Assembly (NCBI GenBank): GCA_001898225.1
Contig: MKTJ01000056.1
Coordinates: 1-64,000 of the forward strand
DNA: 64,000 bases
Source of the DNA: Chloroflexi bacterium 54-19
GTDB taxonomy: Bacteria; Chloroflexota; Chloroflexia; Chloroheliales; Chloroheliaceae
Reading direction: 5' to 3'
Of the stretch, positions 5,348-28,088 are shown in pieces. Under the pieces are notes generated by a model. The model was given only the letters and a program-made list of their open reading frames with translations, did not search any database and was not told the DNA's origin. The stretch's first letter is position 1. Every line of letters begins with the position of its first letter. The position numbers and the translations under genes are program-made.

Positions 5348-5662
5348 ATGGCTGACAAAGTACAAGCGCAATACGAGCAGTTAGACCAAATCGTTAGTCA
5401 ATTAAATCAACAGGCTCAGGCCGTTGAAGATGTGAATAACAAATTAAAAGGCCCCTATGAGGAGCTTGTTCCTGACGGGTGGAAAGGTAAGGGTGCTGAT
5501 CAATTCAAACAAGAAATGGATCAGAGGATCTTTCCTATGCTAGGCAAGATGAAAGACGCTCTGACTCAGGCTTCGAGTACTACCAAGCAGATGGCGGAGA
5601 CTTTCAAGCAGGCGGAGGAGGAAGGCAACAACCTCATTATTAGCATCCAGATACAGTTTTAG
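5348..5662 (+). CDS. WXG100/ESAT-6-like protein
   Basis: 104 aa, helical, central motif DGWKGKGADQFKQEM; upstream of an EssC-like gene. Confidence 0.88.
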   Translation: MADKVQAQYEQLDQIVSQLNQQAQAVEDVNNKLKGPYEELVPDGWKGKGADQFKQEMDQRIFPMLGKMKDALTQASSTTKQMAETFKQAEEEGNNLIISIQIQF

Positions 5663-5689: not shown

Positions 5690-5998
5690 ATGGCTAACGA
5701 CGAGATAAAACTAGATTACGCAAAAGCTGACAAAATGGCCTCTGCCTTTAAGGCCGGCAAGGAGGAGCTTGAAGGTGTTAAGCAGGCGATGACAAAGATA
5801 GCTTCCGATCTTGAGGGTGGTGCCATGCTCGGTACGGGTGGTGAGGCTTACGTTCATGCTATCCGAGAAGTATTTCTCAAGAACCTGGATAAGTTCATCC
5901 AAAAAATGGAAGAAGAAGCAGGCGATGTGAATAATGCGATTAAAGATATGCAGGCGGCCGATAGTAGTGCCGCTTCGGCAAACAAAAGTGTTGGTTAG
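5690..5998 (+). CDS. ESAT-6/CFP-10-like partner lacking a clear WXG
   Basis: 102-aa helical ORF directly downstream of the WXG100 gene; same size and layout. Confidence 0.65.
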   Translation: MANDEIKLDYAKADKMASAFKAGKEELEGVKQAMTKIASDLEGGAMLGTGGEAYVHAIREVFLKNLDKFIQKMEEEAGDVNNAIKDMQAADSSAASANKSVG

Positions 5999-6184: not shown

Positions 6185-6523
6185 ATGGAGGTAATTATGA
6201 GTTTTCTCAGCATGATTTTTGGTCAGGTTGAAAGTTCTATTGCAGGAATCAGGCAAGTAGTTCAGACCGTAGAGCAAGCGGCGTTAGCACCCATAGCAGC
6301 GATGGCTCAGCAAGTCGTAGGCGGTGCATGGAAGGGTGATGGTGCCGATGCTTTTGTAAATCAGCTTATGTCCATTGCAACGCCTAAACTTCAAAAGATG
6401 AACCAGGCGGCCACGTTGTATCATACTAATATCGGAAAATCGCGCGACACAATACAGCAGGCTGATCAGAAAGTAGCCGGTCTAGCCAAGAACCTCGAGG
6501 AACCCTTTAATTTCTTCAAGTAG
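6185..6523 (+). CDS. WXG100/ESAT-6-like protein
   Basis: VGGAWKGDGADAFVNQL central WXG motif; likely start at the internal Met (6197) or at 6185. Confidence 0.87.
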   Translation: MEVIMSFLSMIFGQVESSIAGIRQVVQTVEQAALAPIAAMAQQVVGGAWKGDGADAFVNQLMSIATPKLQKMNQAATLYHTNIGKSRDTIQQADQKVAGLAKNLEEPFNFFK

Positions 6524-6586: not shown

Positions 6587-6889
6587 ATGGCAGACGTAGT
6601 TGATATGAAGGTGCCGGAAGTTCAGGCAATGGCTAAATCTCTTGATACTATTAGCACGGTACTGAGTACTTGCTCTAAAACGCTTCAGGTTATCAGCATG
6701 GCGTTAAAATCGAACATTTTTACCGGTCTGGTCGGAGCGGCCGCTATAGTTTGGATTGACACTTACAGGCCACGAATTGATGATATGGCTGACAAGACCG
6801 AAAAGTTAAGCCAGGCAGTAACTAAATCGGTTGAAGCCTTTCAAAATGGTGACATGGAAGCATCCAATTTATTCATGACCGGTCTGTAA
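6587..6889 (+). CDS. ESAT-6-like partner with hydrophobic centre
   Basis: 100-aa ORF following the WXG100 gene; central segment FTGLVGAAAIVWIDTYRP, helical flanks. Confidence 0.6.
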   Translation: MADVVDMKVPEVQAMAKSLDTISTVLSTCSKTLQVISMALKSNIFTGLVGAAAIVWIDTYRPRIDDMADKTEKLSQAVTKSVEAFQNGDMEASNLFMTGL

Positions 6890-6934: not shown

Positions 6935-8035
6935 CTAAACCCTGGATAAAACGACGTTTAGCAGGATTGTAATAACAATTGCAGTTATGAGCAGGATAGC
7001 CAGAAGCATAAACGCGGTCCGTGGGCTTAACCCCCGATTGCGTTTTGTTTCTGGCGTGTCTTCAAAAGCCGTACTCAGTAACTCTTTAAGTGCATCCGCA
7101 ACGTTGTTTGGTCTCTCTGAAGGGTTTGGCATGGTAAACCTGATTGCCAGAATGGCAGCAGGCCTCACATCCTCAATCCGGTTCATAGGTACGCGGCGGT
7201 TCGCTCTTACAGCTTCATAAACCTCAGAATCATTAGATAACCGGAAAGGAAAGGCCGGTTGTCCGATCAATAATTCGTAAAGAATAAGTCCCACGCCGTA
7301 TACATCAGTACGGTAATCGGCGTAAGGTCTTTTCCCAAGCAACTCTGGGGCAGTATAGGCGGGAAGAACAGCATCTTTATACCAGAAATTTATAATGTTG
7401 TCGGGAGTACTTACAATACCCAGGTCAATAAGCAAGATGGTAGGTACAGCCGGGTCTCCCTCAAAACGGACCAGAATCGATTCCGGGCAGAGACCGCAGT
7501 GCAAAATCCCTATGCTATGCATGAGGGCAACTGTACGAGCCAGATTTATCTCGAGCCATCCAATGTGGTAAACCCATAACTGGGGGTTTTTAATTAAGCT
7601 ATCCCTTAGTGGTTCGCCTTCAAAGTATTCAAACAGGAAGAAGTAGAGTAAGTTTCCTTTAAACATGGCCTTGCCATAGCCTTCGGTGCCTGATTTGTTG
7701 CTATAAGGAGGGATCAGCCTGGGTAAACCGCTGTTATATTTGTTATATTGTTTTTTACCCGCAATTTCCTGTAGAAAACTGACCTCCCGCTTGATACGAT
7801 TGGTATGCTCTGGCCCTGGATGGGCAACTTTCAGCATGATTTTCTTTTTATTAACTTGCGCCTCGTAAAGTGTTGCGGAACGCAGGACAGTAACCAGGCG
7901 AATAATCTCAATATCGCCGAGCAACTCACCGTATTCAAGAATATGTGGAGACATCTCCGCAGGGCACGAGGCTTCATGACAAAAGAGGTTACTGTCTGTT
8001 GAAGAACGCTCACATTGCAGGCAAATTTGTTTCAA
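6935..8035 (-). CDS. Protein-kinase-fold protein with N-terminal zinc ribbon and C-terminal TM helix; predicted pseudokinase
   Basis: CxxC...CxxxxC N-terminus, IMLKVAH lysine, MHSIGILHCGLCPESILV in place of HRDLKPEN, DLG in place of DFG, TAPELL; C-terminal TM AFMLLAILLITAIVITILLNVV. Confidence 0.85.
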   Translation of the reverse strand: MKQICLQCERSSTDSNLFCHEASCPAEMSPHILEYGELLGDIEIIRLVTVLRSATLYEAQVNKKKIMLKVAHPGPEHTNRIKREVSFLQEIAGKKQYNKYNSGLPRLIPPYSNKSGTEGYGKAMFKGNLLYFFLFEYFEGEPLRDSLIKNPQLWVYHIGWLEINLARTVALMHSIGILHCGLCPESILVRFEGDPAVPTILLIDLGIVSTPDNIINFWYKDAVLPAYTAPELLGKRPYADYRTDVYGVGLILYELLIGQPAFPFRLSNDSEVYEAVRANRRVPMNRIEDVRPAAILAIRFTMPNPSERPNNVADALKELLSTAFEDTPETKRNRGLSPRTAFMLLAILLITAIVITILLNVVLSRV

Positions 8036-8160: not shown

Positions 8161-11100
8161 ATGAATTATATAGATCGTCCACCACGCATCCAACCAGAAT
8201 TACCGTTTAATGAATTTGAAATTCCAGAACCGCCGACCAAAGAAGATCAGACCTGGATTCGGCTGCTTCAGATTGGCGTTCCAGTTATAACTGTGCTTGG
8301 TTTTATACTTGTATCTGTTCTGGGTTCTGGCTCAGGTGGTCTTTTGTTGATAATACCAATGGTGTTATCAATAGTAGCTTCAGTTACCTTCTCACTATAT
8401 AGTTATAGCAAAGAACGCCAGAAAATTTTTGAAGCTGAAAAGGCTTATGAAAGTCGTCTTATTGAGCTAAATAAGGAAATGCATACCTGGCATGACCTGC
8501 AACGGCGTTTTTATGTACATAATTACCCTGATATAAATGAACTTCAATCTATTGTGGTGCAAGCGAACGGCGAAGCTGTAAAGTTTGGAGAAATACAGAG
8601 ACCCATAGCCCGTTTGTGGGAAAGACGTACGAGCGATGCCGACTTTGGCTTTGTTCGACTTGGTATCGGTACCTTACCATCTACGGTTACCTATTCTCTG
8701 AAAGGCCACACCGAGGATCGAAGTAGCCAACTTACGCGAGCAGCTCTAAAACTTGATGCTGACTCCCGGTTTGTTACCGATGTGCCGGTAGTTATTTCGC
8801 TTCGAAAACCTGCTGAAGAAGATGATGACGAGGATGAAAATAAAAAAGAAAAAAAGGAAGAATCTCTTTATACTCCCTATACCCACGCGCTTGGTATAGC
8901 CGGTAGACCTGAAGCAATTTATGGATTTGCCAGAACTCTGCTGGCTCATTTCGTAGTGTTTCATTCACCCTCAGACGCTCGCCTCTTTGTGCTGGCTAAC
9001 AAAAGTCATGAATGGGAGTGGACTAAACCGTTACCACACTGTAAAGGGCATGAACAAAATCTCAATCATTGCTTTGTAAGTGAGATAAAAGAAGATACCG
9101 ACGCATACGAGTTTAACGATGATAATGAAGGTGAGCTTGAGAAATTTCTCGAAGGGATTCGTAAAGAGCTTGCTCAACGGAAAATTCGCTTGCAGGAGCA
9201 TGAAGGAAACGAGGAGCGGGGAGATGTTACCCTGCCGCATTTAGTAGTAGTAGTTGACCTGCTCGATCTGGGTGATAAAAATTCACCTTTACGGAATATC
9301 GAAAGTGATGCTGCAATCTCCATACTTCTTGAGGAAGGTGCTCAACTAGGGGCCAGCATAATATTTCTGGTACCTGACCGAGGTAAAATCCCAGGCGGGT
9401 GCGAAGCGGTATTAGAAGTAGCCCATACAGCCCCGGCTACCAATAGCCAGAATCAATTCAATAAAAAGCTTCATTTTCGTTTCGCTGAAATTGGACTAAA
9501 CGGTGATCATTACGTTGGGGTGGCAGACGCTTTTAATATCCAGCAAGCCACTCTACTGGCGTTTAATTTATCGCAGTTGGCTATCCGAGAGGGAAGTGGG
9601 GCCAGTCTGGCTAGCGCCGTACCATTTTTGGACTTGATGGCTTATAAAACCCTGCAGGAGCTTAAACAAGACGCATGGGGGCGCTGGCAGGCCAGCAAGG
9701 AACCCCGCTATAGCAACTGGCTTCGAGTGAAAATGGGTCTAATGGCAGGTAACAAACCCCGTTCCCTGGTATTTTCAGCCAAGCGGGATGGCGTTCATGG
9801 AATGGTGGCTGGTAGTACCGGTTCAGGCAAATCAGAGCTTCTGATTTCGCTTATTACCGGTATGGCCTTGAATTACGACCCGTCTGTACTTAATTTTGTT
9901 TTAGTTGACTACAAAGGCGGCGGCGCATTTAGTGAGTTCGTGGCGCTACCCCATTGTGTCGATATTATAACTAATCTCGCTCCTGACGGTGTTACCCGTA
10001 TGTTTACGGCTATTCAAGCAGAGATGAAACGCCGTCAGGCCCTTAATGTTGAGACAAAAACCAAGAATATTGTGGAATATCGACAGAAAGGATTGCATCA
10101 CGTCAAGCCCTATCCATTTCTGTTTATCATCATTGATGAATTTGCCGAAATGATAGCTGACCGGGCAGAATTTAAGGGCGAGCTTGAAAGTATTACACGG
10201 GTTGGACGAGCGCAGGGCATTTCTTTGATTCTGGCAGCACAGAGGCCCAGCGGTGTTACCGATCAAATGCGCTCGAATATCAAGTTCCGGATCTGTTTAC
10301 GGGTAGAGACACCAGGAGAGAGCCGGGAGATGCTCCGGCGGACTGATGCTGCCTTCTTACCACCCAGTATTCCAGGACGAGGTTATTTACAGGTGGGTAA
10401 CGAGGAGATTGAGCTTATTCAATCTGCCTATACCGGTGATAAATTTGTTGATCCGACTAATAATCCTGTACTTCCGGTAATATGGCCGGATCGGGGGGGT
10501 CGTAATTACGAGCTTACAGAAGAACAGGCTCCGCCGGAACTATACAAAAGCATCATTACCATCTTTAATAAAATGGCAAGTGAAAACCATTATGAGGAGC
10601 AACATGCTCCCTGGCCTGCTTTCTTACCCAAGCACCTGGCGCTGTCCGAACCGCTTATCTCAACCGATCAAACGCAACCTACGATTACAGCGAAGCAGTA
10701 CCTTAATAAGGTTGACCAGATAACGATGGGACAAGATCCAGAAGAAACCCTGACGCTTAATCCTGCTATTAATCAATGGCTGGACGGTCAGAACGGCTGG
10801 ACTGACCAATTAGACTGGGATAAATACGCAATGCGCCCGGTAATAGGCCTGGTTGATAATCCTTATGCAGCTCAGCAGTTGCCTTTTACCGTCGATCTTC
10901 CGCGTGGACATGCAGTTGTCTTTGGTACATCGGGATCCGGCAAAACTACTTTTATTCGAACGCTGGTTACTAGCCTTGCCGCCCGTTACTCCCCCGATCA
11001 ATTTCACGCTTATATTCTTGATCTTGGTGGCCGAAATTTATCCGTTCTGGGCAATCTTCCTCACGTTGGCGCATTAATATTACCTGATGAGGAGGGTTAC

Positions 11101-14100
11101 CAGGAGCGCGTTCAGCAAGTTATTCGAGAAATCAATAATATTGTGGAAAAGCGCAAAAATGCGCTGAGTCTGGCACGCGTTACGGATGTGTACCAGTATA
11201 ATCAGCAAAATCCCGAACAACCATTGCCCCCTATCCTGGTGGCGATAGACAATTTCATTGAGTTTATTGAGACTTTTGGGGTCGAGAAGGACAATGTAGA
11301 GAGTATCCTCACGGGTTTAATTACCCTTGCCCGACAGTCCAAGTCCTACGCAGTTCATTTTCTAATTTCAGTTAACCGGCTGGGAGACCTTTCAACCCAG
11401 CTATTTAGCATTTTTACAGAACGATTTGCTCTCCGTCTGGCCGATAGTACCGAGTACCGGTCATTAGTTGGTAGCAGTGTTCCGGAAATCGGAGATATTC
11501 CCGGTCGAGGTTATACTCAACTCGATGGGTATGCTCTTAGTTTCCAGGTGGCAATTCCAATCGCTTTGAGACAAGATAATAAAGCGGAGCCAACCAACGA
11601 GCTTAAAGAGTTGGATCTATTGGTTCAGCAGATTTGCAATTATGTAGATAAAAGCGGTCAACAGTATAACTTGCCGGTTAAAGTAGGCAGCTTACCCAAG
11701 TCTATTCTGGATAAAAAACTGATCGCCGATAAGCATATGCTAAAGCTGGACGCATCTTTCCTGGAGGGCTTGTATAGTTCTACTTCCCAGGAGTGGAACA
11801 ATAGTATCGACCCGGCAAAATGCGATTGGTTGAGTGTTTTGATCGGGGTTTCCTCCGGTAATAAACCCCGAAAGCTCAAATTGGAAGCCAAAGAAGATGG
11901 CGTCCATGGTATGGTAGCGGGTGGTACTGGCTCTGGTAAATCAGAACTGTTAATGACCCTTATTGTTAATCTAGCCCTTGGGTATAATCCCGATATTCTA
12001 AACTTTGTGCTTGTGGATTATAAAGGTGGGGGGGCTTTTAAACCCTTTGAGAAATTGCCGCATGTTGTCGATTCGCTTACCAATCTAAATAAATCGGCTG
12101 TAAGACGTATGTTCACCTCAATTATAGCTGAGATGAACCGGCGTGCGCAGTTGAATACCGCGACACTTACCGCCAATATTGTCGAGTACCATCAGAAAAA
12201 TTATCATAATACCCATGCTCCCTACCCGCATTTGCTTATCATTATTGATGAATTTGCCGAAATGATAAGCGACAGCCCGGAATTCGGGCAAGCCCTTAAT
12301 AGTATTACCCGGCTTGGCCGGGCGCAGGGTGTATATCTCTTGCTGGCTGCCCAGCGCCCTGTTGGGGTTTCCGACCAGATGAGAGCTAACATTAAATACC
12401 GGATCTGCTTGCGCGTAGAAGGTGCTGATACTAGTCGCGAGATGCTCCGCCGTTCTGATGCGGCATTCCTACCGAACGGTATGCCTGGCCGGGGCTACTT
12501 GCAGATTGGCAATAATGATATAGAACTCATTCAGGTAGCTTATGCCGGTGAGAATTATGATTATGCACCCTTAACCGAAAGAGGAGATAAACCCAAGTTT
12601 TTTGAGATAGTGGTACAGCTTTGTAATGATTTGGAAGCCCGGTTCAAAAAAGATAAACTTTCAATTCCCCAGAAAAAATTAACCGGCGCCCAGCAGTTAT
12701 CAGACAAGGATCCAAGTGGCCTGGAGATACCACGGCGTCCCTGGCCGGAGGCTTTGCCTTCAACCTTAGAATTTTCTTATAACATGGTTGCAAAATATGT
12801 TGATCAGGATAGCCAGCAATTAATGAAGCTGGATCAAAATAAACCGCTTATGATCAACCCCTACATCAATGATTGGCTCAGCGGCTCTGGGAGTTGGCCC
12901 AGCAAATCATGGAGTAAAAGGGCTATGGAAGCGGTGGTCGGGCTGGTAGATGATCCCAACAGCGCCCACCAGTTACCGCTTACGGTTGATTTTAAACGCG
13001 GCCATGTAGTTATTTTCGGAGCTTCCGGATGGGGTAAAACAACCTTTTTGCGCTCTATGGTACTTAGTTTGGCTTCTACCCACTCGCCGGATGAAGTAAA
13101 CTTCCATATCCTTGACCTGGGGGGTCGGAACCTGGAAGTACTCAAAGATTTTCCGCAGGTTGGTACAATAATTGTGCCGGACGAACGGGGTTATGAAGAG
13201 CGAGTCCAACAACTTTTGAGAGAGCTAAACGATGAGATTGACAGGCGTAAAAAGATCTTTGGGGCCCTTACGCTCTACCAGTACAACGCACGACCTGATG
13301 TAACAACAAAATGTCCTGCAATTGTCGTAATAATCGACAATTTCGCCGAATATATTGAATCTTTTGGCACTAATGCTCAACCAGATGATGCTAATAATTT
13401 ATTCAATATTCTGGTAACCCTCATCCGACAGGCAAAAGCTTATGGCTTACATTTTGTTATTACTGCCAACAGGCTCAATCTATTATCAAGCAAACTCTAT
13501 AGTTTGTTCACGGAACGCTTCACCCTCCGCCTCTCTGACCCCGGTGATTATGTAGGAATTGTTGGCTCCAATATGCCTGATATTGAGGAAATCAGTGGGC
13601 GTGGCTATGTCAGGGTCGGCCGTATGGCTTTAAATTTTCAAGTTGCAGTCATACCGGGTGCAATTGATGAGGAAGGACGGGTAGGGAAAGAAGTTGAGCA
13701 GATTCAGCAGCTCGGCCAGCAAATGCAAAGTTACCTTTCCAGGTCAGGGAATTCTTATTCTGAGCCTTTACGTATCAGCGCCCTTCCCGATAGCTCATCA
13801 TTCCGTACAATTTTAGCAAGAAATGATAATATTAGCCTGGAGGACGGGACTTTTATAGATTCGCTTAAGGAATCGACTATAGCTCACTGGGCGTTTAACG
13901 GTTCCGCCGAACACGCAAACTGGTTGCAGGTACCGCTTGGTATCGCTTCAGGTAACCGCATTCGTACTCTTTCACTGGAAGCAAAGCGAGACGGCGTTCA
14001 CGGAATGATAGCCGGTGGTACTGGCTCAGGCAAATCAGAACTTCTCATGACCTTGATTGTCAGTCTGGCGCTACGTTACTCGCCTGACATTCTAAACTTT

Positions 14101-17031
14101 TTGCTGGTTGACTACAAAGGCGGTGGCGCTTTTAAGCCATTTGATGATTTGCCGCATTGTGTTGATATTGTAACGAATCTTAATAAAGCGGCTGTAGCCA
14201 GAATGTTCACCGCAATTAATGCCGAAATACGCAGGAGGCAGGAGCTTAACGTCAGAACAAATACCAAGGATATTATTGATTATCGCCGTAAAGGCTTGCA
14301 CCTTACCGGTGAGCAGTATCCGCACCTCTTCATCATAATTGATGAATACGCAGAAATGATTTCGGATAACAGCGCATACCTTAATGAACTGGAGAGTATT
14401 ACCAGAGTTGGCCGGGCCCAGGGTGTCAATTTAGTACTGGCTTCCCAGCAGCCAAAAGGTGTTACCGACCAGATGCGGGCGAATATAAAGTTTCGCCTTT
14501 GTTTACGGGTGGAACAAGCAGATACCAGTCGTGAATTACTGCGCCGTCCCGATGCAGCCTTCCTGCCTAATGGTATACCCGGACGAGGCTACCTGCAGGT
14601 TGGCAATGAGAATATAGAGCTAATCCAGGTATCCTATACCGGGGAGAAGCAACCCGATGACCGGGTTCAAACAACACTTTGGCCGGATCGCGACCAGGAT
14701 AATATTGAAAGTAGTGATGGCGAACCACCTCGCCTCTTTGATATGGCAGTTCAGCTTGCCCTTGAACTGGTGAACGGGAAAAAAGCGCCCAAGCCCTGGC
14801 CAGCTTTCCTCCCGGACCGCTTTAGCCTTGAATCAGCTATGGTTGATGCTAAAAATAATACAACCTTTACTCTGCAAAGCACGGTTACCGACTGGATCAA
14901 TGGGGAAACCGAATTGCTATGGAATGCTGATAGCTTGGAAAAGGGCCAATATAACTCTTTGTCTGCAATTACAGGTCTGCTGGACGATCCGATGGAAGCC
15001 ACTCAGGAACCGCTGGTTTTTGATCTTAGCCGTAATCACCTGGTTGTGTTGGGTGATTCGGGTATGGGAAAAACGAGCCTGTTACGAACCATATTAATCA
15101 GTCTGACGGCTGAACATAGTCCTGATGAATTACACGTTTACGTACTGGACCTGGGGGGCCGTAATTTCCGCAGCTTTGAAGAATTACCTCATGTCGGGGC
15201 AGTAGTCTCCGTAACTGAAGAAAACTTTGAAATGCGATTTAACCGGCTATTGGATTATTTAAGCAAAACTATTAGTAGCCGTCAGCAAATAATTAGTGCT
15301 GCGGAGGCCAGCAGTTTTTCAGATTATAATACTCGGTTCAGTGAGCAAGCTTTACCTACAATTGTGGTAATGATCGACAATTTCGCTGAAATGGCTGTTC
15401 AGATTCGGGAAGAAAATTTTGATACTTTATTAGAGAACAGAATTATACCCCTGGTACGTAGCGCCTTAAGTGCAGGAGTTATATTCGTTGTTACAGCCAA
15501 CATTCCTACCAATTTACCAAACCGGCTCTATGGCCTCTTCAGTGAGAGAATTACATTTAAACAAACCGATACGGACCGCTATTTAGATATAGTTGGTCGG
15601 GGAGCAGTAGAGATCGGTGATATTCCGGGGCGGGGTTATATCAGGCGTGATCGGAAGGTATTACTTTTCCAAACTGCCTTGCCGCTTGGACATTTTGATA
15701 AAGATGGACGTTTAAAGGCAGTTGAAGCTGACGATATTCGATTGTTATCTACACACATGGCGGAAACTCTTAAAGCAAGAGGAAGAAAAACAGCCCCACC
15801 GGCAACTTTACAGGCTTTGCCAGCGGAGATTAGCCTTTCTAAATTGTTGCAGATGGCTGAGTCTAACAAATCGGATAAATCGGATAAAGTTGAGGCTATT
15901 GTAGGTCAGCAGGTTGATCTGAGTCTTGTACAAATTGATCTGAAGAAAGTCGGTCAACACTTTATGGTGGTGGGACCACCCTTATCCGGTAAGACAACTT
16001 TATTGTATAACTACACTTTGTCACTGGCTAGTCGTTACGCTCCATCCCAGGCAAAGTTTGTTTTGATTGATACCCAGGGTAAATTCTTTAATTACGGGGG
16101 GATTTTAAGCCTTGATTCGCTCCCTCATGTCTTAGAATGTATATCTGAGATAAATCAAGTTGAGGAACTACTTCCAAAAATTAAGGCAGAGTGTGAAACG
16201 TTATCTGCAAAGAACAATAATACTTCACTATTCGTCATAATCGATAACTTCGATGAATTAAATGAGGAAATAGGCCAACGACCTTTTGCACGTGAATTGG
16301 CTGGTCTTTTACGACGTTACGGTCGAGATGGATTGCATTTCATTATCAGCACCATGCCTCGAGCTGATACAAGTGTATTAAAACAAAGGATTTCAAGCTC
16401 AAGGTATGGTATCAGTTTGCGGAACCGAGACGCTTTAGAGGTTTTGAGTCCAAGTTTAAGAACACCCGCCGCACTCCGTGATAAAGAATTACCGCTGGGC
16501 AGAGGGTTTATTATCGAATCTGGACAGGCGACTATGATTCAGTGTGCTAACCCTTATAGTGAAGAGTCAGAGGTAATGCTGCTAGGAGGGCAGCCGGAGG
16601 AGGATAGAAGATCTAAAGCACTGGACAAGTGGGTAGCTAATATTAGAGATAAGTACCTTAACCAGCATGCTCGTTGGGCTTCAACCTCCAGTTCCGAAAG
16701 TGATGGAAATACTGTGCATACTGGAAATGGAACCAGTCCTATGGTTTCTGCAAAAGCAAAGCGAATGCTTGGTATATTACAATCGGGAATGCGTAAAGAA
16801 CTTGAAGAGCTACAGGGGGAAAATGGTAATGGAACCCTTCTTACACTTCAGTTGGTACTCCAGGATGTAAACAAATGGAATGATGAAACTGTATTGACCG
16901 GTTTATTGAGAGAGCTATATGTGAAACAATCAGGAGTAACTGGCCCTCTTGAAGAAGTTATTAGGGGCCTTGCCTCAGGGATGGATGCGGACGGGTTGAT
17001 GAGCAATTTTGAGGGGAATACTGAAGCATGA
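8161..17031 (+). CDS. Giant EssC/EccC-like FtsK/SpoIIIE ATPase with seven P-loop modules
   Basis: 2956 aa; two N-terminal TM segments; P-loops GSTGSGKSELL, GTSGSGKTTF, GGTGSGKSELL, GASGWGKTTF, GGTGSGKSELL, GDSGMGKTSL, GPPLSGKTTL. Confidence 0.95.
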   Translation: MNYIDRPPRIQPELPFNEFEIPEPPTKEDQTWIRLLQIGVPVITVLGFILVSVLGSGSGGLLLIIPMVLSIVASVTFSLYSYSKERQKIFEAEKAYESRLIELNKEMHTWHDLQRRFYVHNYPDINELQSIVVQANGEAVKFGEIQRPIARLWERRTSDADFGFVRLGIGTLPSTVTYSLKGHTEDRSSQLTRAALKLDADSRFVTDVPVVISLRKPAEEDDDEDENKKEKKEESLYTPYTHALGIAGRPEAIYGFARTLLAHFVVFHSPSDARLFVLANKSHEWEWTKPLPHCKGHEQNLNHCFVSEIKEDTDAYEFNDDNEGELEKFLEGIRKELAQRKIRLQEHEGNEERGDVTLPHLVVVVDLLDLGDKNSPLRNIESDAAISILLEEGAQLGASIIFLVPDRGKIPGGCEAVLEVAHTAPATNSQNQFNKKLHFRFAEIGLNGDHYVGVADAFNIQQATLLAFNLSQLAIREGSGASLASAVPFLDLMAYKTLQELKQDAWGRWQASKEPRYSNWLRVKMGLMAGNKPRSLVFSAKRDGVHGMVAGSTGSGKSELLISLITGMALNYDPSVLNFVLVDYKGGGAFSEFVALPHCVDIITNLAPDGVTRMFTAIQAEMKRRQALNVETKTKNIVEYRQKGLHHVKPYPFLFIIIDEFAEMIADRAEFKGELESITRVGRAQGISLILAAQRPSGVTDQMRSNIKFRICLRVETPGESREMLRRTDAAFLPPSIPGRGYLQVGNEEIELIQSAYTGDKFVDPTNNPVLPVIWPDRGGRNYELTEEQAPPELYKSIITIFNKMASENHYEEQHAPWPAFLPKHLALSEPLISTDQTQPTITAKQYLNKVDQITMGQDPEETLTLNPAINQWLDGQNGWTDQLDWDKYAMRPVIGLVDNPYAAQQLPFTVDLPRGHAVVFGTSGSGKTTFIRTLVTSLAARYSPDQFHAYILDLGGRNLSVLGNLPHVGALILPDEEGYQERVQQVIREINNIVEKRKNALSLARVTDVYQYNQQNPEQPLPPILVAIDNFIEFIETFGVEKDNVESILTGLITLARQSKSYAVHFLISVNRLGDLSTQLFSIFTERFALRLADSTEYRSLVGSSVPEIGDIPGRGYTQLDGYALSFQVAIPIALRQDNKAEPTNELKELDLLVQQICNYVDKSGQQYNLPVKVGSLPKSILDKKLIADKHMLKLDASFLEGLYSSTSQEWNNSIDPAKCDWLSVLIGVSSGNKPRKLKLEAKEDGVHGMVAGGTGSGKSELLMTLIVNLALGYNPDILNFVLVDYKGGGAFKPFEKLPHVVDSLTNLNKSAVRRMFTSIIAEMNRRAQLNTATLTANIVEYHQKNYHNTHAPYPHLLIIIDEFAEMISDSPEFGQALNSITRLGRAQGVYLLLAAQRPVGVSDQMRANIKYRICLRVEGADTSREMLRRSDAAFLPNGMPGRGYLQIGNNDIELIQVAYAGENYDYAPLTERGDKPKFFEIVVQLCNDLEARFKKDKLSIPQKKLTGAQQLSDKDPSGLEIPRRPWPEALPSTLEFSYNMVAKYVDQDSQQLMKLDQNKPLMINPYINDWLSGSGSWPSKSWSKRAMEAVVGLVDDPNSAHQLPLTVDFKRGHVVIFGASGWGKTTFLRSMVLSLASTHSPDEVNFHILDLGGRNLEVLKDFPQVGTIIVPDERGYEERVQQLLRELNDEIDRRKKIFGALTLYQYNARPDVTTKCPAIVVIIDNFAEYIESFGTNAQPDDANNLFNILVTLIRQAKAYGLHFVITANRLNLLSSKLYSLFTERFTLRLSDPGDYVGIVGSNMPDIEEISGRGYVRVGRMALNFQVAVIPGAIDEEGRVGKEVEQIQQLGQQMQSYLSRSGNSYSEPLRISALPDSSSFRTILARNDNISLEDGTFIDSLKESTIAHWAFNGSAEHANWLQVPLGIASGNRIRTLSLEAKRDGVHGMIAGGTGSGKSELLMTLIVSLALRYSPDILNFLLVDYKGGGAFKPFDDLPHCVDIVTNLNKAAVARMFTAINAEIRRRQELNVRTNTKDIIDYRRKGLHLTGEQYPHLFIIIDEYAEMISDNSAYLNELESITRVGRAQGVNLVLASQQPKGVTDQMRANIKFRLCLRVEQADTSRELLRRPDAAFLPNGIPGRGYLQVGNENIELIQVSYTGEKQPDDRVQTTLWPDRDQDNIESSDGEPPRLFDMAVQLALELVNGKKAPKPWPAFLPDRFSLESAMVDAKNNTTFTLQSTVTDWINGETELLWNADSLEKGQYNSLSAITGLLDDPMEATQEPLVFDLSRNHLVVLGDSGMGKTSLLRTILISLTAEHSPDELHVYVLDLGGRNFRSFEELPHVGAVVSVTEENFEMRFNRLLDYLSKTISSRQQIISAAEASSFSDYNTRFSEQALPTIVVMIDNFAEMAVQIREENFDTLLENRIIPLVRSALSAGVIFVVTANIPTNLPNRLYGLFSERITFKQTDTDRYLDIVGRGAVEIGDIPGRGYIRRDRKVLLFQTALPLGHFDKDGRLKAVEADDIRLLSTHMAETLKARGRKTAPPATLQALPAEISLSKLLQMAESNKSDKSDKVEAIVGQQVDLSLVQIDLKKVGQHFMVVGPPLSGKTTLLYNYTLSLASRYAPSQAKFVLIDTQGKFFNYGGILSLDSLPHVLECISEINQVEELLPKIKAECETLSAKNNNTSLFVIIDNFDELNEEIGQRPFARELAGLLRRYGRDGLHFIISTMPRADTSVLKQRISSSRYGISLRNRDALEVLSPSLRTPAALRDKELPLGRGFIIESGQATMIQCANPYSEESEVMLLGGQPEEDRRSKALDKWVANIRDKYLNQHARWASTSSSESDGNTVHTGNGTSPMVSAKAKRMLGILQSGMRKELEELQGENGNGTLLTLQLVLQDVNKWNDETVLTGLLRELYVKQSGVTGPLEEVIRGLASGMDADGLMSNFEGNTEA

Positions 17032-17735
17032 GCATGAATAACAAACAACCTCGGCTGGAGCTGTTTATTGATATTTTTAGTTTGAAAAAACAGCGGGCGC
17101 TTGTGCTTCCAACTTTGATGCCTTCTGAACTGATTACACAGGTGCTAAAAGAGTTTGGCGGCACCAACAACATAGGCAAAGGAGTTTCAGAGGCTGCACC
17201 CGAAAAGTTCCTTAAAATGGAGTACATTTCCGACTCTCCCGACGAATATTTGCTAATAAAAGCCAGCACCAGGCAACCACTCAATCCTACTGTACCGCTT
17301 GGGCAACAACTTGCGCCAGGTGAGCTATTAGTCCTGGTGGAGCTTAACAAGCCCTTACCGGCAGATACAGTGAGACCTTCACGGCCTATCTACCTGGTAG
17401 AGCAAAGATCCAATAAAGTTTATAAGATACACTGGTTGCCCGCAATCATCGGCAGGTCAAGTTCAAATCTGCCCTTTAATGATCGTTTAGCTGTTAATTT
17501 AAGCTGGCACCCGGACGGGCAACGAGTTTCCCGCCGCCATGCCCAAATAACCGAGGTGAGTGGCCAATTTTTTGTAACAAGCCTATCAAATAATCCAGTA
17601 CTTATAAAACGCAGCCAGGATATGCAGGTACGAATAGATAGTGAGCGAGGTGTACAAGCGCTTAATAAAGGGGATGAATTAGTATTTAATAACAATTTAA
17701 TTGTGTTAAAATTTATTGTGCGTGATGAGAAGTAA
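17028..17735 (+). CDS. Protein with possible YukD/ubiquitin-fold N-terminus and FHA-like C-terminus
   Basis: C-terminal AIIGRSSSN...RVSRRHAQITEVSGQFFVTSLSNN is FHA-like; the N-terminal ~100 aa contain PLGQQLAPGELLVLVE reminiscent of YukD-type ubiquitin-like domains; start overlaps the essC-like stop. Confidence 0.7.
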   Translation: MSMNNKQPRLELFIDIFSLKKQRALVLPTLMPSELITQVLKEFGGTNNIGKGVSEAAPEKFLKMEYISDSPDEYLLIKASTRQPLNPTVPLGQQLAPGELLVLVELNKPLPADTVRPSRPIYLVEQRSNKVYKIHWLPAIIGRSSSNLPFNDRLAVNLSWHPDGQRVSRRHAQITEVSGQFFVTSLSNNPVLIKRSQDMQVRIDSERGVQALNKGDELVFNNNLIVLKFIVRDEK

Positions 17736-17763: not shown

Positions 17764-20280
17764 ATGAAGTTTTCATTCCGTCATTTAAAGGCTATTCCAT
17801 TACTCTGCTTTATTTTTATATTTTTAACCACAAGTTCAAACACTACTGCTCAAAGCATCAAAATTGAAAATCCTGATTTTCTAAAACTCTGGTCACGAAC
17901 GGACAGTTTAGTGCTTAGCAACCAGGTTTCACGTACTTATCTATGGGGGCCTGCACCCTTTACTGGCGCAATACAAGAACCTTACGTTGAATCTCCTGGC
18001 GGTACGCGCCTTGTTCAATATTTTGATAAGAGCCGCATGGAAATAACCCATCCTGAAGGGAGTAAATCCGACGTTTTTTATGTAAGTAATGGTCTGCTTG
18101 TACAACAGTTAGTATCCGGAATGCTTCAACTGGGCGACAATAAGTTTGAAAAGCGTGAGCCTTCAACCACTGGAGTGGCAGGCGACAACGATGATACCAG
18201 TGGTCCTACTTACAAGGCTCTTGGCAAATTGACCGCTACAACCAGCAATGCGGAGGGGCAGCCTGTAGCAAAAGCAGTGGACCGAGCTGGAAATACAAGG
18301 GACGCTAACTCCGAGTTCGGACAGTACAATATTACTTATGCTCATTTTGAGGCTGGCGTTGGTCACAATATAGCTAAACCTTTTTGGGACTTCTTAAATA
18401 TCACTGGTCCGGTGCAAAACCCTGACGGTTCGATTGTTACAGGGCGACTATTTGATCCAGTATTTTATGCTACGGGCCTGCCAATTACCGATGCTTACTG
18501 GGCAAAAGTAAAAGTGGGCGGTCAGATTAAAGACGTTTTGATTCAAGCATTCGAGCGACGTGTTTTGACCTATACCCCCTCAAACTCTAACGGCTTTCAG
18601 GTGGAGATGGGTAATGTAGGACGGCATTTTAAGGATTGGTTAGATAGACCCCCGGCGCCTCCCGCGACCGTTCAAATCAGAGCCATAGAGCGCACTGCTG
18701 CAAATTTTGATTTAAAGCTCGTTGTGACAAGCGATTCACGTGAAAGTATCAAAGAGTTTTTGGTTGAGGTCAAAGACAAGGAAGATAATGTTAAAGTTTT
18801 CTCGCCTCCACTTGTGCCTTTTGATCCTGCAAACCAGGAAACCGATATCAGTATACCTATTGATAAGCTTACCCCCGGTCAAGAATACGTAGTTACCGTT
18901 AGTGCAAATGATAGGTTCGGTAGATCAATTATCTCAAATGGTACGACCGAGTCAACAATCTTAGCAACCGATTCCTTTACATATCCGCTTCCACCAACAG
19001 CAACAATTTTGTTTGATGCCAGACCACAACTTGATAGTACCGGCAAAAATTTCACTGCTAATTTCACAATAAATACCACTTCACCACAGACTATTGAAAA
19101 AATTCTTGTCGACGTTGTAGATGATAAAGATCAACCTATTAGTCCGCCACTTGCACCTATTGGATTCGACCCAAAATCAAAAACAGTGCAAATTACAATA
19201 CCAGTAGAACGCTTGCGTCCAGATACAAAATATACCGTAGAGGTTAGAGCAAAAAATAAGGATGACAGTTTTGTTTTTACTCCAAATAACAGCAACATTT
19301 TGGGTACTTCAGATTTCTCATACAGTTCGGCGGCACTTCCAAAGCCTGTTACAATTAAGCTTAGAATTACACAACAAACGAAAGATGCTACTGGGAAATT
19401 ATTCTTACCTGTTTATGTAGAAGTTCAGGATCCAGATAAGCGGCTAGATCCATTCAGGGGTTTTGTTAAATGCCAGGTTACTCTCCAGGCTAATAATGTT
19501 GATATTCTTAAGGTACAACCTGATTGTAGTAGTGATAGTAAAGATCCCTCAACATTTTTTGTTAATGTACCCTTGACTCCTGATACACTCAAGCCAAATC
19601 AAGACTACGTTATAACCGTTGACATACTAACTCCTGCGACCAGTAATTTAAATATTACTTCAGGCCCTCAAACCTTCAAGCCAATACTACTAGCACCTCC
19701 TGGTTTCTTTGAATCAGTAATTCAACCTAATCTAATCTTAATTATAACCACTTTTCTAGCTATTCTTATTTTTATTGCAACAATCCTCTATTTTCGAAAT
19801 CGACCACGTAAAAGAGAAATACCTGCACCACTTCCGAATCCATATAGTGAAGCAACAATGATACACGCGATTGTACCTCGGGTACAACCAGCGGGTACCA
19901 TGGTCCAAAACCCTGTAGTACCTAACAAAAAGAGCTTACAGTTGATTATTCGAGTTAGACGGACACCAGATCAACAGCAAATAAGGCAGGAAGTATTTGG
20001 TAACTTTCCAGTGGTTATCGGGCGCCAGGTAAATAATTCCTATCCAGTAGTTGTCGGGCCAAACGGTAAATTTGTTATTTTGGGGGATCCCAAAATTTCA
20101 GGTAATCACATAGAAATACGCAGGGAAGCAGATAATTTTATATTGGTTGATCTTAATAGTACCAATGGAACAATAGTTAACGGGGGAATGCTGGAAAAAG
20201 GAGGTAGAGTAAGTTTTAATAAGCCTACTGTTGTTGAGCTAGGGCCAAATACTACTATAGAGCTAAATCCACAGATCTAG
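17764..20280 (+). CDS. Exported/membrane protein: signal peptide, FnIII-like repeats, TM helix and cytoplasmic FHA domain
   Basis: Hydrophobic N-terminus; repeated PGQEYVVTVSANDRFG / PDTKYTVEVRAKNKD; TM LILIITTFLAILIFIATILYF; C-terminal FPVVIGRQVNN...KISGNHIEIRREADNFILVDLNSTNGTIVNG. Confidence 0.85.
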   Translation: MKFSFRHLKAIPLLCFIFIFLTTSSNTTAQSIKIENPDFLKLWSRTDSLVLSNQVSRTYLWGPAPFTGAIQEPYVESPGGTRLVQYFDKSRMEITHPEGSKSDVFYVSNGLLVQQLVSGMLQLGDNKFEKREPSTTGVAGDNDDTSGPTYKALGKLTATTSNAEGQPVAKAVDRAGNTRDANSEFGQYNITYAHFEAGVGHNIAKPFWDFLNITGPVQNPDGSIVTGRLFDPVFYATGLPITDAYWAKVKVGGQIKDVLIQAFERRVLTYTPSNSNGFQVEMGNVGRHFKDWLDRPPAPPATVQIRAIERTAANFDLKLVVTSDSRESIKEFLVEVKDKEDNVKVFSPPLVPFDPANQETDISIPIDKLTPGQEYVVTVSANDRFGRSIISNGTTESTILATDSFTYPLPPTATILFDARPQLDSTGKNFTANFTINTTSPQTIEKILVDVVDDKDQPISPPLAPIGFDPKSKTVQITIPVERLRPDTKYTVEVRAKNKDDSFVFTPNNSNILGTSDFSYSSAALPKPVTIKLRITQQTKDATGKLFLPVYVEVQDPDKRLDPFRGFVKCQVTLQANNVDILKVQPDCSSDSKDPSTFFVNVPLTPDTLKPNQDYVITVDILTPATSNLNITSGPQTFKPILLAPPGFFESVIQPNLILIITTFLAILIFIATILYFRNRPRKREIPAPLPNPYSEATMIHAIVPRVQPAGTMVQNPVVPNKKSLQLIIRVRRTPDQQQIRQEVFGNFPVVIGRQVNNSYPVVVGPNGKFVILGDPKISGNHIEIRREADNFILVDLNSTNGTIVNGGMLEKGGRVSFNKPTVVELGPNTTIELNPQI

Positions 20281-22023: not shown

Positions 22024-22446
22024 ATGGCCTGGTACGAATACGATCCGCAGCGTTTATTGATTGAGCGGAAAGCGATGGCGCTCAAATTTCCTCAATTCCA
22101 GCTTTTGAAAAGAGAAGATGCTTTTTGCTGGCTGGGCACACCCGAATCCAACCGAGGGAATAAATACGAAATCCTGGTGGAGTACCCGGAGCATTTTCCG
22201 AATATGGCCCCGTCGGTCTTTCCGGTGACGCCAGGGGTGAACTCGACGGACCTGACTGATCAGCTTAAGCACCACTACCCGAACGGTAAGTTGTGTCTTT
22301 ATTATCCGGGGGACCGGACTTTCTCCAACGATACTACCGCCGCCACGGTAGTCGTCACTGCCGCCTGGTTCTTCCCGTATGAGGCATGGTTGGAAAGTGG
22401 TAAAAGAGTGTGGCCCGGCCAGGAGCTGGACCACATGCAAATATAA
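22024..22446 (+). CDS. Bacterial E2/UBC-like protein
   Basis: YPEHFPNMAPSVFPV then HHYPNGKLCLYYPGD, matching the E2 pattern HPNxxxNGxxCLxxL; C-terminal WFFPYEAWLESGKRVWPGQELDH as in bacterial E2-like proteins. Confidence 0.78.
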   Translation: MAWYEYDPQRLLIERKAMALKFPQFQLLKREDAFCWLGTPESNRGNKYEILVEYPEHFPNMAPSVFPVTPGVNSTDLTDQLKHHYPNGKLCLYYPGDRTFSNDTTAATVVVTAAWFFPYEAWLESGKRVWPGQELDHMQI

Positions 22447-23473: not shown

Positions 23474-25540
23474 ATGAGTAACGAAAGACCTGAGGACAGG
23501 TGGAAAAGGGAAAAAGAATATCAACCGCCGACCTCAGACCAAGGGGATCAAACTGTTATCGACGCTTTTTGGATGGCGGAAAAGCGCAGGCAAGTCCCAG
23601 GCCAACAGAACACCGGCGGTCAACAATACACGGGCGGCCAGCCGAACAACCAGCAATACGACCAACCGGTCGAAATAAAAACCGAGCTATTTGATTGGAT
23701 GGATGAGAACCGCGGGCAAGTCCCAGGCCAACAGGGGCAGCAGTATACGGGCGGCCAGCCGAACAACCAGCAATACGACCAGCCAATCGAAATAAAAACC
23801 GAGCTATTCGACCAGCCGGTCGAAATAAAAACCGAGCTATTCGATTGGACGGATGAGAACCGCGGTTCAGGCCAACAGGGCGGGCAGCAGTACGGCCAAC
23901 CTCAAAATAACTCTGGTAATCAAGACCAGTGGATGGCCGAAAAACGGGGACCAGTCCCAGGCCAGCAGAACACCGGCGGTCAACAGAACTATTACGGACA
24001 GCAAAACACGGGCGGCCAGCCGAATAACCAGCCGGTCGAAATAAAAACCGAGCTATTTGATTGGATGGCGGAAAAGCGCAGGCAAGTCCCAGGCCAACAG
24101 GGGCAGCAGTATACGGGCGGCCAGCCGAATAACCAGCAATACGACCAGCCGGTCGAAATAAAAACCGAGCTATTCGATTGGACGGATGAGAACCGGGGAC
24201 AAGTCCCAGGCCAGGGGGCGGGGCACGGCGGCAACCAGTACGGTCAGCAAGGTCAACCGAACGGGCAAAAGCAGTGGATGGCTGAAAAACGGGGACCAGT
24301 CCCAGGCCAACAAAACCCTAACGGCGGTCAACCAGGCAGACAAGGTGGGCAACCGAACGGGCAAGAACAATGGATGGCCGAGAAACGGGGTGGTCCAACC
24401 CCCGGCCAGAACGGGCAGCAGTTCACAGGCGGGCAGCAATACAGACAGCAGAGCGGGCAGCCGAGTGGAGCTCAATGGATGGCCGAGAAAAGGGGCGAGC
24501 CAGTCCCAGGCCAGAACGGGCAGGCGAACCAGTATCGCCCGTCCGGGCAGGTAGGTCCAGCCGCCGACCCGAACCAGTGGATGCGCGAGAAGCAAGGGGG
24601 ACCAGTCCCTTTTGCTGCCCAGTCGAGTGCCGTTGAAGCGGCCTGGCACCAGGAAAAGAATTTTAAGGCTCCGAGTTCAGGCGGAAACCGTAATCTCTAC
24701 TTTATTCTGGGTGGAGTCGGGGCGCTGGTGGTAATCGCGATTGTAGTAGTGGTGATTTTGCTGCTTCAGCCTAAAACTCCGCCGGTCCCGGCAGCAACCG
24801 CGACCGCAGCGATTACGACTGCCGCCGTAACGACGAGCAGCGCGACAACTGCCGCCGTAACGACAGCGGCGGTAACAACCGCCCCGGTGACGACCGAAAA
24901 GGCGGCCACCACAGCGGCGGTTACAACCAGCCCAGCCAACGATTCGGCCAAACTTCTGACATTGGCCCAGGACGCCACCAATAAGCAAAACTGGCAGGAC
25001 GTAGTTAGCACGCTCGAACTGCTTTCGCCGAGCGACCCGAACTTCAGCAAGGCCAAACCGTTGCTGGTTAATGCTTATGTAAAGCTGGGCGAACAGGCTG
25101 TCGCGGATAAGAGCAACAGCCAGGAGTCGGCTAATCTGGCCCTGACGAATTTCCGCAAGGCTAACGCACTCGACGCGAGTTTTGCCGGGTTAGCCGCCGA
25201 ACTTCAACAGGCCGATACATTTGCGACCGGACTATTGCAATTCAACTCGGAGCAGTATCAGCAGGCTGTGAACACGATTAAGCCGCTGTATGACTCTTCG
25301 GCGACGCAGGTGGACGGTGTGCATTATCGCAATACGGGGGACATTCTTTACAACTCGTATTTGAAACTTGGCGATAAGGTCTTTAATCCGGGCAACGTGG
25401 ACGCGCTAAACCAGGCCCGCAATTTCTACAGCCTGGCGCTGGCGGTGGACGTTGATAACAAAGACGACGCTAAAAAAAAGCTCTTGCAAGTAACCAACGC
25501 GCTAAAATTGATGGGGCCAACTCCGACAACCAAGAAATAG
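23474..25540 (+). CDS. Repeat-rich low-complexity protein with TM helix and C-terminal TPR-like domain
   Basis: About ten W[MT]xE[KN]R...VPGQ units and five [DN]QP[VI]EIKTELFD units; TM LYFILGGVGALVVIAIVVVVILLLQ; Thr/Ala-rich linker; TPR-like C-terminus. Confidence 0.85.
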   Translation: MSNERPEDRWKREKEYQPPTSDQGDQTVIDAFWMAEKRRQVPGQQNTGGQQYTGGQPNNQQYDQPVEIKTELFDWMDENRGQVPGQQGQQYTGGQPNNQQYDQPIEIKTELFDQPVEIKTELFDWTDENRGSGQQGGQQYGQPQNNSGNQDQWMAEKRGPVPGQQNTGGQQNYYGQQNTGGQPNNQPVEIKTELFDWMAEKRRQVPGQQGQQYTGGQPNNQQYDQPVEIKTELFDWTDENRGQVPGQGAGHGGNQYGQQGQPNGQKQWMAEKRGPVPGQQNPNGGQPGRQGGQPNGQEQWMAEKRGGPTPGQNGQQFTGGQQYRQQSGQPSGAQWMAEKRGEPVPGQNGQANQYRPSGQVGPAADPNQWMREKQGGPVPFAAQSSAVEAAWHQEKNFKAPSSGGNRNLYFILGGVGALVVIAIVVVVILLLQPKTPPVPAATATAAITTAAVTTSSATTAAVTTAAVTTAPVTTEKAATTAAVTTSPANDSAKLLTLAQDATNKQNWQDVVSTLELLSPSDPNFSKAKPLLVNAYVKLGEQAVADKSNSQESANLALTNFRKANALDASFAGLAAELQQADTFATGLLQFNSEQYQQAVNTIKPLYDSSATQVDGVHYRNTGDILYNSYLKLGDKVFNPGNVDALNQARNFYSLALAVDVDNKDDAKKKLLQVTNALKLMGPTPTTKK

Positions 25541-26687: not shown

Positions 26688-28088
26688 ATGACTAATCCTG
26701 ACCTTTCACAATCTTTAGCCCAAACCGAGAACGACCTTTTCACTCCTCGGGCGGCTTTAGCCGCTTTAGGCATCAAACTGGCTAAACTTGACCTTTTCGC
26801 GCCAATTCGTAACCAGGTCAAAATTAAGCAGAAAACCGTCCATTATAGACCTGATTAGAAACTGTATGCAGCCTTCCTCAATATCTTAGCTGGCCGCAAG
26901 AAAATGGTTGAACTTAACAAACTGGTTCGGGCGGATTTTGCTCTCCAACAAACTTTTATTAGAGTAGTTGGGGCTGAACAATCGGTAGTACAGACCACTT
27001 TAGATGCTTGTAGCGAGATAAATCTAGTGCAAATGCACCAGGCCATCCAGGACATTTTCCGCACTTATTCTCACGTTTACAAACACGATTATCAAAAAGA
27101 GTGGCAACTACTTGATGTGGATATGACCGGAGCACCTTATGGCAAAAAGGCCGCTCTTGCCACTAAAGGTTACTTTGCTAATCAAAGGCGTAACCGGCGG
27201 GGTCGCCAGATTGGCCGAGTATTAGCTACCACTCATAAGGAAATTGTAGTTGATCGGCTCTATACCGGCAAGGCTCAACTTAATAATTCTTTAGGAGATC
27301 TGGTCGCTGCTACCGCACAGGTTCTAGGTTTAGAGGAACAACAGCGTCAGCGCACCATCTGGCGTATCGATGCTGGAGGAGGTAGTCTGAACGATGTAAA
27401 TAGCCTTTTGGCACGGGGTTATCAGGTGCATTGCAAAGACTATTCGGCCCAACGCACCCGTAATTTAACCAAGAGTGTTAAGGAGTGGTTCCGAGACCCA
27501 CTGCATGGTGACCGGGAAGTAGGCTGGGTTACTTTGGAAAGTGGAGATTATGTGAGACCGGTAAGACGCATTGCGTTGCGCTTTAAGAAAGCCAATGGGC
27601 AATGGGGTGAGGCCGTCATAATCTCAACTTTACCTGGCGAAGATGTGCAGAAATTAGCCGGTGAAACCGGAAGTGAGCCATCAAACCAGAAGGCCAGCGC
27701 CCTGGCTTACGTCCACTTTTATGACCAGCGGGGTGGAGGGATCGAAACTGAGTTCAAAGAAGATAAAACAGGTTTAGGCTTAAATAGCCGCAATAAAAAG
27801 AGTTTTTGGGGCCAGGCCATGGTGGTACAGCTGGGGACGTTGGCTCAAAATGTATTAATTTGGGCACGGGATTGGTTAAGTAATGGTCAACCCTAGTTAA
27901 GTCAGGATGGCATAAAGCGAATGGGGCGGGATTTATTAACCATCAGTGGAGTTGTGCTCAGTGACAGCAAAGGGAAGGTTCGGGTGGTGATCCTCAATCG
28001 CAGTGACACATATGCAAAACTAGTCAAGGCAGGTTTAGCTAAGCTTCTGGCTGTCGAACATGTTGCCGTTGTTTTGGGCGAAATTTAG
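26688..28088 (+). pseudogene. Transposase (IS4-like DDE type) with two in-frame TAG codons
   Basis: Frame from ATG 26688 continues through TAG 26856-26858 and TAG 27894-27896 to 28088; LLDVDMTGAPYGKKA, WRIDAGGGSLNDVNSLLARGYQVHCKD. Confidence 0.7.

Follow-up and report, generated by a model that had tools for sequence, protein, structure and literature searches.

The closest described relatives of the protein reported here are the ATPases EccC and EssC of the type VII secretion systems T7SSa and T7SSb, for example T. curvata EccC (4nh0), ESX-5 EccC5, B. subtilis YukB and G. thermodenitrificans EssC. EccC and EssC have one D1-D2 unit and four NTPase folds within about 1300-1500 amino acids, and a 2024 survey of T7SS subtypes (Garrett et al., PMC11217815) counted four NTPase domains in the ATPase of each subtype. 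In ESX-5, the pore is lined by six EccC chains, whose NBD1-3 either are extended and flexible or contract to form a stack of three discs (PMC8131196). The inter-domain linker of EccC binds in the pockets of ATPase1 and ATPase2 and is auto-inhibitory, and ligands of the EccC ATPase domain pockets include signal peptides as well as inhibitory linkers (PMC6954902). The replacement of the Walker B Glu by Asn in D2 of EssC has also been documented (PMC4925161). WXG100 sequences in Chloroflexi were noted previously (PMC4010439, PMC10765036), and the word Chloroflex- is absent from the 2024 survey (PMC11217815). In the open literature that we searched, no EccC was described whose NTPase domains exceed four in number, and nothing was found on a multi-module EccC or a Chloroflexota T7SS of this kind.

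The window analyzed here (the whole stretch of 64,000 nucleotides from Chloroflexi bacterium 54-19) contains a single uninterrupted reading frame for an ATPase of 2956 amino acids (Table 1). Seven Walker A motifs are located in this frame at residues 551, 922, 1254, 1620, 1952, 2298 and 2605 (nucleotides 9811, 10924, 11920, 13018, 14014, 15052 and 15973), with a spacing of mostly 320-385 residues from one motif to the next; these positions lie within 6 nucleotides of those given in a preliminary description, which had read the same seven motifs from the sequence alone. The Pfam search resolved PF01580 into seven distinct stretches of the protein (5e-171 overall), where three or four would have been expected if the seven-module reading were wrong, and in the genome search each stretch individually exceeded the curated cut-off (44.8-106 bits). 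Chance matches to the Walker A motif are therefore ruled out.

Table 1. Positions in the window of the ATPase gene, its domains and its neighbors, with the basis of each assignment
Feature	Position	Strand	Basis
WXG100 protein	5348..5662	+	TIGR03930 5e-17; PF06013
WXG100-like protein	5690..5998	+	TIGR03930 6e-8, below cut-off
WXG100 protein	6185..6523	+	PF06013 1.4e-7, over cut-off
WXG100-like protein, weak; also DUF6507/EspC-like	6587..6889	+	profile matches
Membrane-anchored pseudokinase, N-terminal Cys-rich segment, C-terminal TM	6935..8035	-	Pkinase 1e-17; HRD replaced by HCG
Seven-P-loop EccC/EssC-type T7SS ATPase	8161..17031	+	ORF; TIGR03928, TIGR03924 and TIGR03925 far above curated cut-offs; seven PF01580 stretches
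Two transmembrane segments, residues ~31-82	8251..8406	+	highest hydropathy peak in the whole chain; TIGR03924 from residue 22 (EccC-type N-terminus)
Degenerate NTPase domain D0/DUF without Walker A, residues ~190-490	8728..9630	+	profile matches to 8rin, 7np7 and 9qks
M1, D1-type, predicted catalytic, unit 1	9673..10560	+	Walker A GSTGSGKS, Walker B IIIDE, R-finger
M2, D2-type, predicted non-catalytic, unit 1	10768..11655	+	GTSGSGKT / AIDN
M3, D1-type, predicted catalytic, unit 2	11782..12660	+	GGTGSGKS / IIIDE
M4, D2-type, predicted non-catalytic, unit 2	12874..13755	+	GASGWGKT / IIDN
M5, D1-type, predicted catalytic, unit 3	13876..14745	+	GGTGSGKS / IIIDE
M6, D2-type, predicted non-catalytic, unit 3	14908..15735	+	GDSGMGKT / MIDN
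M7, C-terminal, D3-type	15853..16560	+	GPPLSGKT / IIDN; profile matches third module of most ordinary EccCs
YukD/EsaB-like ubiquitin-fold + FHA protein	17028..17735	+	FHA; YukD PF08817 in 3/11 members, best 2.7e-4
fn3/Ig-like extracellular, TM, cytoplasmic FHA protein	17764..20280	+	family c4 in 7 loci

The seven modules (M1 to M7) alternate in type, as the preliminary description had noticed. In the protein of the window, M1, M3 and M5 share 63-67% identity and M2, M4 and M6 share 39-49%, the identity between odd and even modules is about 25-30%, and M7 is roughly equidistant from all six others. Profiles of M1/M3/M5, M2/M4/M6 and M7 matched the first, the second and (mostly) the third module of ordinary Chloroflexota EccCs, respectively, and we therefore read the layout of the protein as TM-TM-D0-[D1-D2]x3-D3. 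The arrangement that had been proposed from the motifs, three copies of a two-domain unit (D1-D2) and then a single C-terminal module (D3-type), is supported by the domain parse, the motif pattern and the module trees described below. An eighth, degenerate NTPase domain (D0) had been missed: a profile of this region built from nine relatives matched YukB (9qks), the cryo-EM structure of EccC5 (7np7) and the crystal structure of the EccC5 DUF (8rin) in a PDB profile search, and a motif scan found no Walker A motif in the region. Accordingly, the earlier statement that known proteins have about three FtsK/SpoIIIE domains holds as far as three such domains are counted, but the degenerate D0 makes four NTPase folds. 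A single-sequence AlphaFold model of the D0 region had a pLDDT of 37 and was discarded. The model of the D1-D2 unit was moderate (pLDDT 52 overall, 70-82 in the cores), and its top Foldseek match, EccC 4nh0, was used for support only.

The assignment to the EccC/EssC family, also made in the preliminary description, was borne out by profiles, structure matches and gene neighborhood. The scores of the NCBIfam models, which are summed over the repeats, were 1531 bits for TIGR03928 (cut-off 778), 1037 bits for TIGR03924 (cut-off 509) and 791 bits for TIGR03925 (cut-off 347), and T. curvata EccC 4nh0 was on top of both the sequence and the fold matches in the PDB. The protein shares with EccC and EssC the N-terminal pair of transmembrane segments followed by the degenerate D0/DUF, a catalytic-type D1 with the full set of residues, a D2 that lacks the Walker B Glu (Asn takes its place in D2 of EssC, as in the D2s of the seven-module ATPase), a C-terminal D3 likewise without the Glu, and WXG100 substrate genes alongside the ATPase gene. 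It differs from them in having three D1-D2 units and eight NTPase folds in about 2950 amino acids. Since eight NTPase domains (D0 plus seven, by motif or profile) rather than the usual four are found in 18 full-length relatives, we regard the seven-module ATPase as a variant derived from the EccC/EssC family and not as an ordinary member. The FHA domains, which are on the ATPase itself in EssC, are on two separate downstream proteins here, and the N-terminal FHA domains of T7SSb EssC are absent from the ATPase, which begins directly with the EccC-type N-terminus. Two ordinary EccCs are encoded in the window's own genome (C58, 1303 amino acids; C80, 1291 amino acids); they have D0, D1 with DE, D2 with DN and a further C-terminal part, as in the seven-module ATPase, but only one D1-D2 unit.

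The modules also matched profiles of FtsK, TraB and HerA and the PADLOC models SspH/mad8, which would suit a DNA translocase or a defense-associated FtsK/HerA-type ATPase instead of a secretion motor. These matches were, however, weaker than those of the T7SS models and below the NCBIfam curated cut-offs, and the WXG100 and YukD-like neighbors are hallmarks of T7SS, so that we consider this alternative very improbable. The conserved cassette around the gene (WXG100 proteins, pseudokinase, YukD-like/FHA protein and, in some loci, WXG100-domain effectors) indicates that the seven-module ATPase is very probably the EccC/EssC-family membrane motor of a Chloroflexota type VII secretion system.

Catalytic residues were counted in 13 aligned full-length homologues, including the protein of the window. 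All 39 D1 modules have the Walker A Lys and the Walker B Asp-Glu, and all 39 have Arg both at the position equivalent to R616 and at that equivalent to R543 of T. curvata EccC. We take R616 to be the arginine finger (a numbering that agrees with the 4nh0 sequence) and R543 to be presumably part of the inhibitory D1-D2 interface. The Walker B Glu is absent from all 52 D2 and M7 modules, in 45 of which it is replaced by Asn; the Walker A Lys is kept in every M2 and M4, with Arg instead in three of 13 M6 and four of 13 M7. Three modules have the full hydrolytic set, and the other four may bind ATP but should not hydrolyze it. The mean pairwise identities are 0.71, 0.68 and 0.68 for the three D1s, 0.52-0.54 for the D2s, 0.46 for D3 and 0.23 for the C-terminal tail; that is, the D1s are about equally conserved, and more strongly than D2/D3 (68-71% versus 46-54%), from which we conclude that no D1 copy is decaying. 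Our overall prediction, which covers the family, the function and three motor domains that work, is made with good confidence.

As the ORF holds repeats with 66-74% DNA identity between units in the best-conserved stretches and comes from a draft genome in 93 contigs, the long frame might have arisen from a collapsed or duplicated repeat in the assembly. This explanation is rejected because the same layout is found in 18 full-length homologues from independent genomes: 17 genomes of the class Chloroflexia, the window's included, with a protein of 2.87-3.06 thousand amino acids in one frame, and one genome of another Chloroflexota class (G192), with 2961 amino acids. One of the homologues is located on a 6,346,587-bp contig of a near-finished genome of three contigs (G037). 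Moreover, four-fold synonymous sites match between units at only 0.23-0.36, near chance and close to saturation, and the modules group largely by position across species. An artefact thus has a negligible probability, and the ORF, whose genuineness the preliminary description had made conditional on this point, can be accepted as real. A public contig (JAFKGK010000011.1) shows 100% identity across 27,028 bp of the window but possibly comes from the same sample and is therefore weak independent proof; it was deposited as Candidatus Melainabacteria, a name that looks wrong.

The taxonomic spread, for which the preliminary description had suggested a homologue search, was determined in three Chloroflexota classes. 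The gene is present in 21 of 158 genomes of Chloroflexia (17 complete genes and four fragments cut by contig ends), which belong to five families (f1, f6, f8, f10 and f11), and in one of 29 genomes of the class of G192, whereas none of the 47 genomes of a third class (that of G261) has it, though many of them hold ordinary EccC. The counts of this protein family are lower bounds, as internal repeats may often break assemblies at this gene; seven-module genes broken at contig ends were observed in the draft genomes at L085, L052/L060, L053 and L054. Beyond Chloroflexota the search covered plasmids: 771 plasmid records matched, and the 30 best places listed span only about 2-3.5 kb of DNA, consistent with ordinary EccC/EssC lengths. 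A scan of genome contigs gave no more than an identical contig. Intermediates with two units (about 2250 amino acids) were not seen among the Chloroflexota genomes searched. Two open frames of 1777 and 1802 amino acids (G052/G053), considered as intermediates, were rejected, as they hold an ordinary D0-D1-D2-D3.

In the phylogenetic tree of D1 modules, a branch (96/75) divides the ordinary D1s, including those of the two EccCs from the window's own genome, from the seven-module D1s. Among the latter, the M1 modules make up a group of their own, and M3 groups with M5 (91/98); in one genome (G085) M3 and M5 are sisters (100/99). M2, M4 and M6 group largely by position, although many branches of the module trees are short and weakly supported and not all of the position groups are strictly single clades. 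The grouping of M3 with M5 and the position-wise groups of the D2s fit two successive in-gene duplications of the D1-D2 unit before the sampled families split, and the trees also fit some later homogenization of M3 and M5.

Genes conserved beside the seven-module gene encode up to four WXG100 proteins, a protein that has a kinase fold and a C-terminal transmembrane segment, a ubiquitin-like (Ubl)-FHA protein and, in seven loci, the extracellular/TM/FHA protein. The Ubl-FHA gene is directly 3' of the ATPase gene in nearly all loci, and in the window its start overlaps the ATPase stop. The YukD match of its N-terminal part is weak, and a PDB profile search gave no support for the Ubl reading of the protein in the window. 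The kinase-fold protein, with its N-terminal Cys-rich segment, adjoins the ATPase in most loci; because the Asp of HRD is lost in every aligned member of the family (HCG, HFG, HLA, HLG or HAA), we regard it as a pseudokinase. It resembles EssB of T7SSb, a cytoplasmic pseudokinase with a TM helix, by analogy, and the best PDB matches of its family profile are Ser/Thr kinases, not EssB. Homologues of EsaA, EssA, EccB, EccD, EccE and MycP were not recognized among the gene families conserved beside the ATPase gene, so that, on the present reading, parts of the membrane complex are missing.

In several relatives, the Ubl-FHA gene is followed by genes for proteins in which a WXG100 domain at the N-terminus is joined to a long C-terminal part. 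The one directly after it in L082 (12796-13923) has a C-terminal DNA/RNA non-specific endonuclease domain, an arrangement that T7SS effectors would be expected to show, and is a candidate T7SS nuclease effector in Chloroflexota. WXG100 proteins of 328-453 amino acids are encoded at or near the same place in L079, L080, L033 and L035, and no Pfam family exceeded the cut-off in their C-terminal parts. Further downstream in the window, on the forward strand, we observed a gene for a 140-amino-acid protein like E2 (ubiquitin-conjugating) enzymes (22024-22446; PADLOC E2 models, 2e-19), about 4 kb from the Ubl-FHA gene; an ORF (23474-25540) with many imperfect Gln/Gly-rich repeats ('WMAEKRG...PVPGQ'; 78-86% DNA identity) before a TM segment; and transposase-like ORFs (26904-27896 and 28441-29450), the second of which is, by eye, split over two ORFs.

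The gene content is also similar to that of subtypes T7SSc-T7SSj, in which a core of WXG100, (mostly) YukD-like Ubl and ATPase is often accompanied by kinase-like and separate FHA proteins (PMC11217815). TshM of these subtypes is possibly homologous to kinases and carries a C-terminal TM helix, in which it resembles the neighboring pseudokinase. Unlike in T7SSc-T7SSj, one protein combines the predicted Ubl with an FHA domain here, and the kinase-like protein is without the catalytic Asp.

On the basis of the known EccC structures, we propose that the seven-module ATPase, like EccC, would surround the secretion pore as a hexamer, with each D1 restrained by its own D1-D2 linker and D2. Because linkers auto-inhibit the pockets of EccC, each repeat of D1-D2 with its linkers would add a motor together with its gate. 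Binding of substrate at D3, and perhaps also at the D2 pockets, would open the gates, and three stacked D1 rings would then hydrolyze ATP and drive WXG100-type substrates, in folded form, along an extended column. The simplest geometry would be a hexameric stack of greater height in which three storeys hydrolyze, and the contracted state of ESX-5 with its stacked NBD discs (PMC8131196) favors stacking. Nevertheless, this stacked-hexamer geometry is the least certain step of the proposal, and we advance it tentatively, with slightly less than even confidence.

The length of the ATPase is also compatible with a flexible string of domains, in which only some of the units would sit in rings and the extra D1-D2 units would serve as an elongated capture or regulatory arm giving more substrate reach and avidity. 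The extended, flexible state of NBDs 1-3 in ESX-5 (PMC8131196) and the binding of signal peptides or inhibitory linkers by EccC ATPase pockets (PMC6954902) are in line with such an arm; however, spacers would be expected to decay, and the D1s, with catalytic residues and arginine fingers in 39 of 39, are about equally conserved, which makes the arm rather unlikely. Alternatively, the three D1-D2 units of one chain might lie side by side, so that two chains would complete six-fold D1 and D2 rings, like fused AAA motors. Three repeats are exactly half a hexamer, the modules are similarly spaced, and with a Walker B Glu and a trans-acting arginine finger on each D1, an active site could arise from any D1-D1' pairing. 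Two chains would, however, contribute no more than four TM helices and two copies each of D0 and D3, whereas six EccC chains are used in the T7SS pores known so far (PMC8131196), and we consider this arrangement distinctly improbable.

A differently built motor, which the preliminary description had taken to be implied, is plausible: the sequence gives extra catalytic domains, not their assembly. Whether by a two-chain pseudo-hexamer or by a six-chain, three-storey stack with 18 active sites, a changed subunit economy seems to us evenly balanced in probability; if true, the stoichiometry, step and gating would be unlike those of every T7SS studied.

Only the D1-D2 pair is repeated, and never D0 or D3, suggesting that D1-D2 is the functional motor unit, with roles for D0 and D3 that are filled once in each chain. 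These results bear on the ring stacking of the T7SS motor modules, on how many of them must fire, and on the gating of D1 by D2 and the linkers, and extend the diversity of T7SS to Chloroflexota, where an ATPase with a three-fold D1-D2 would offer a natural test of the stacking and control of the T7SS motor.
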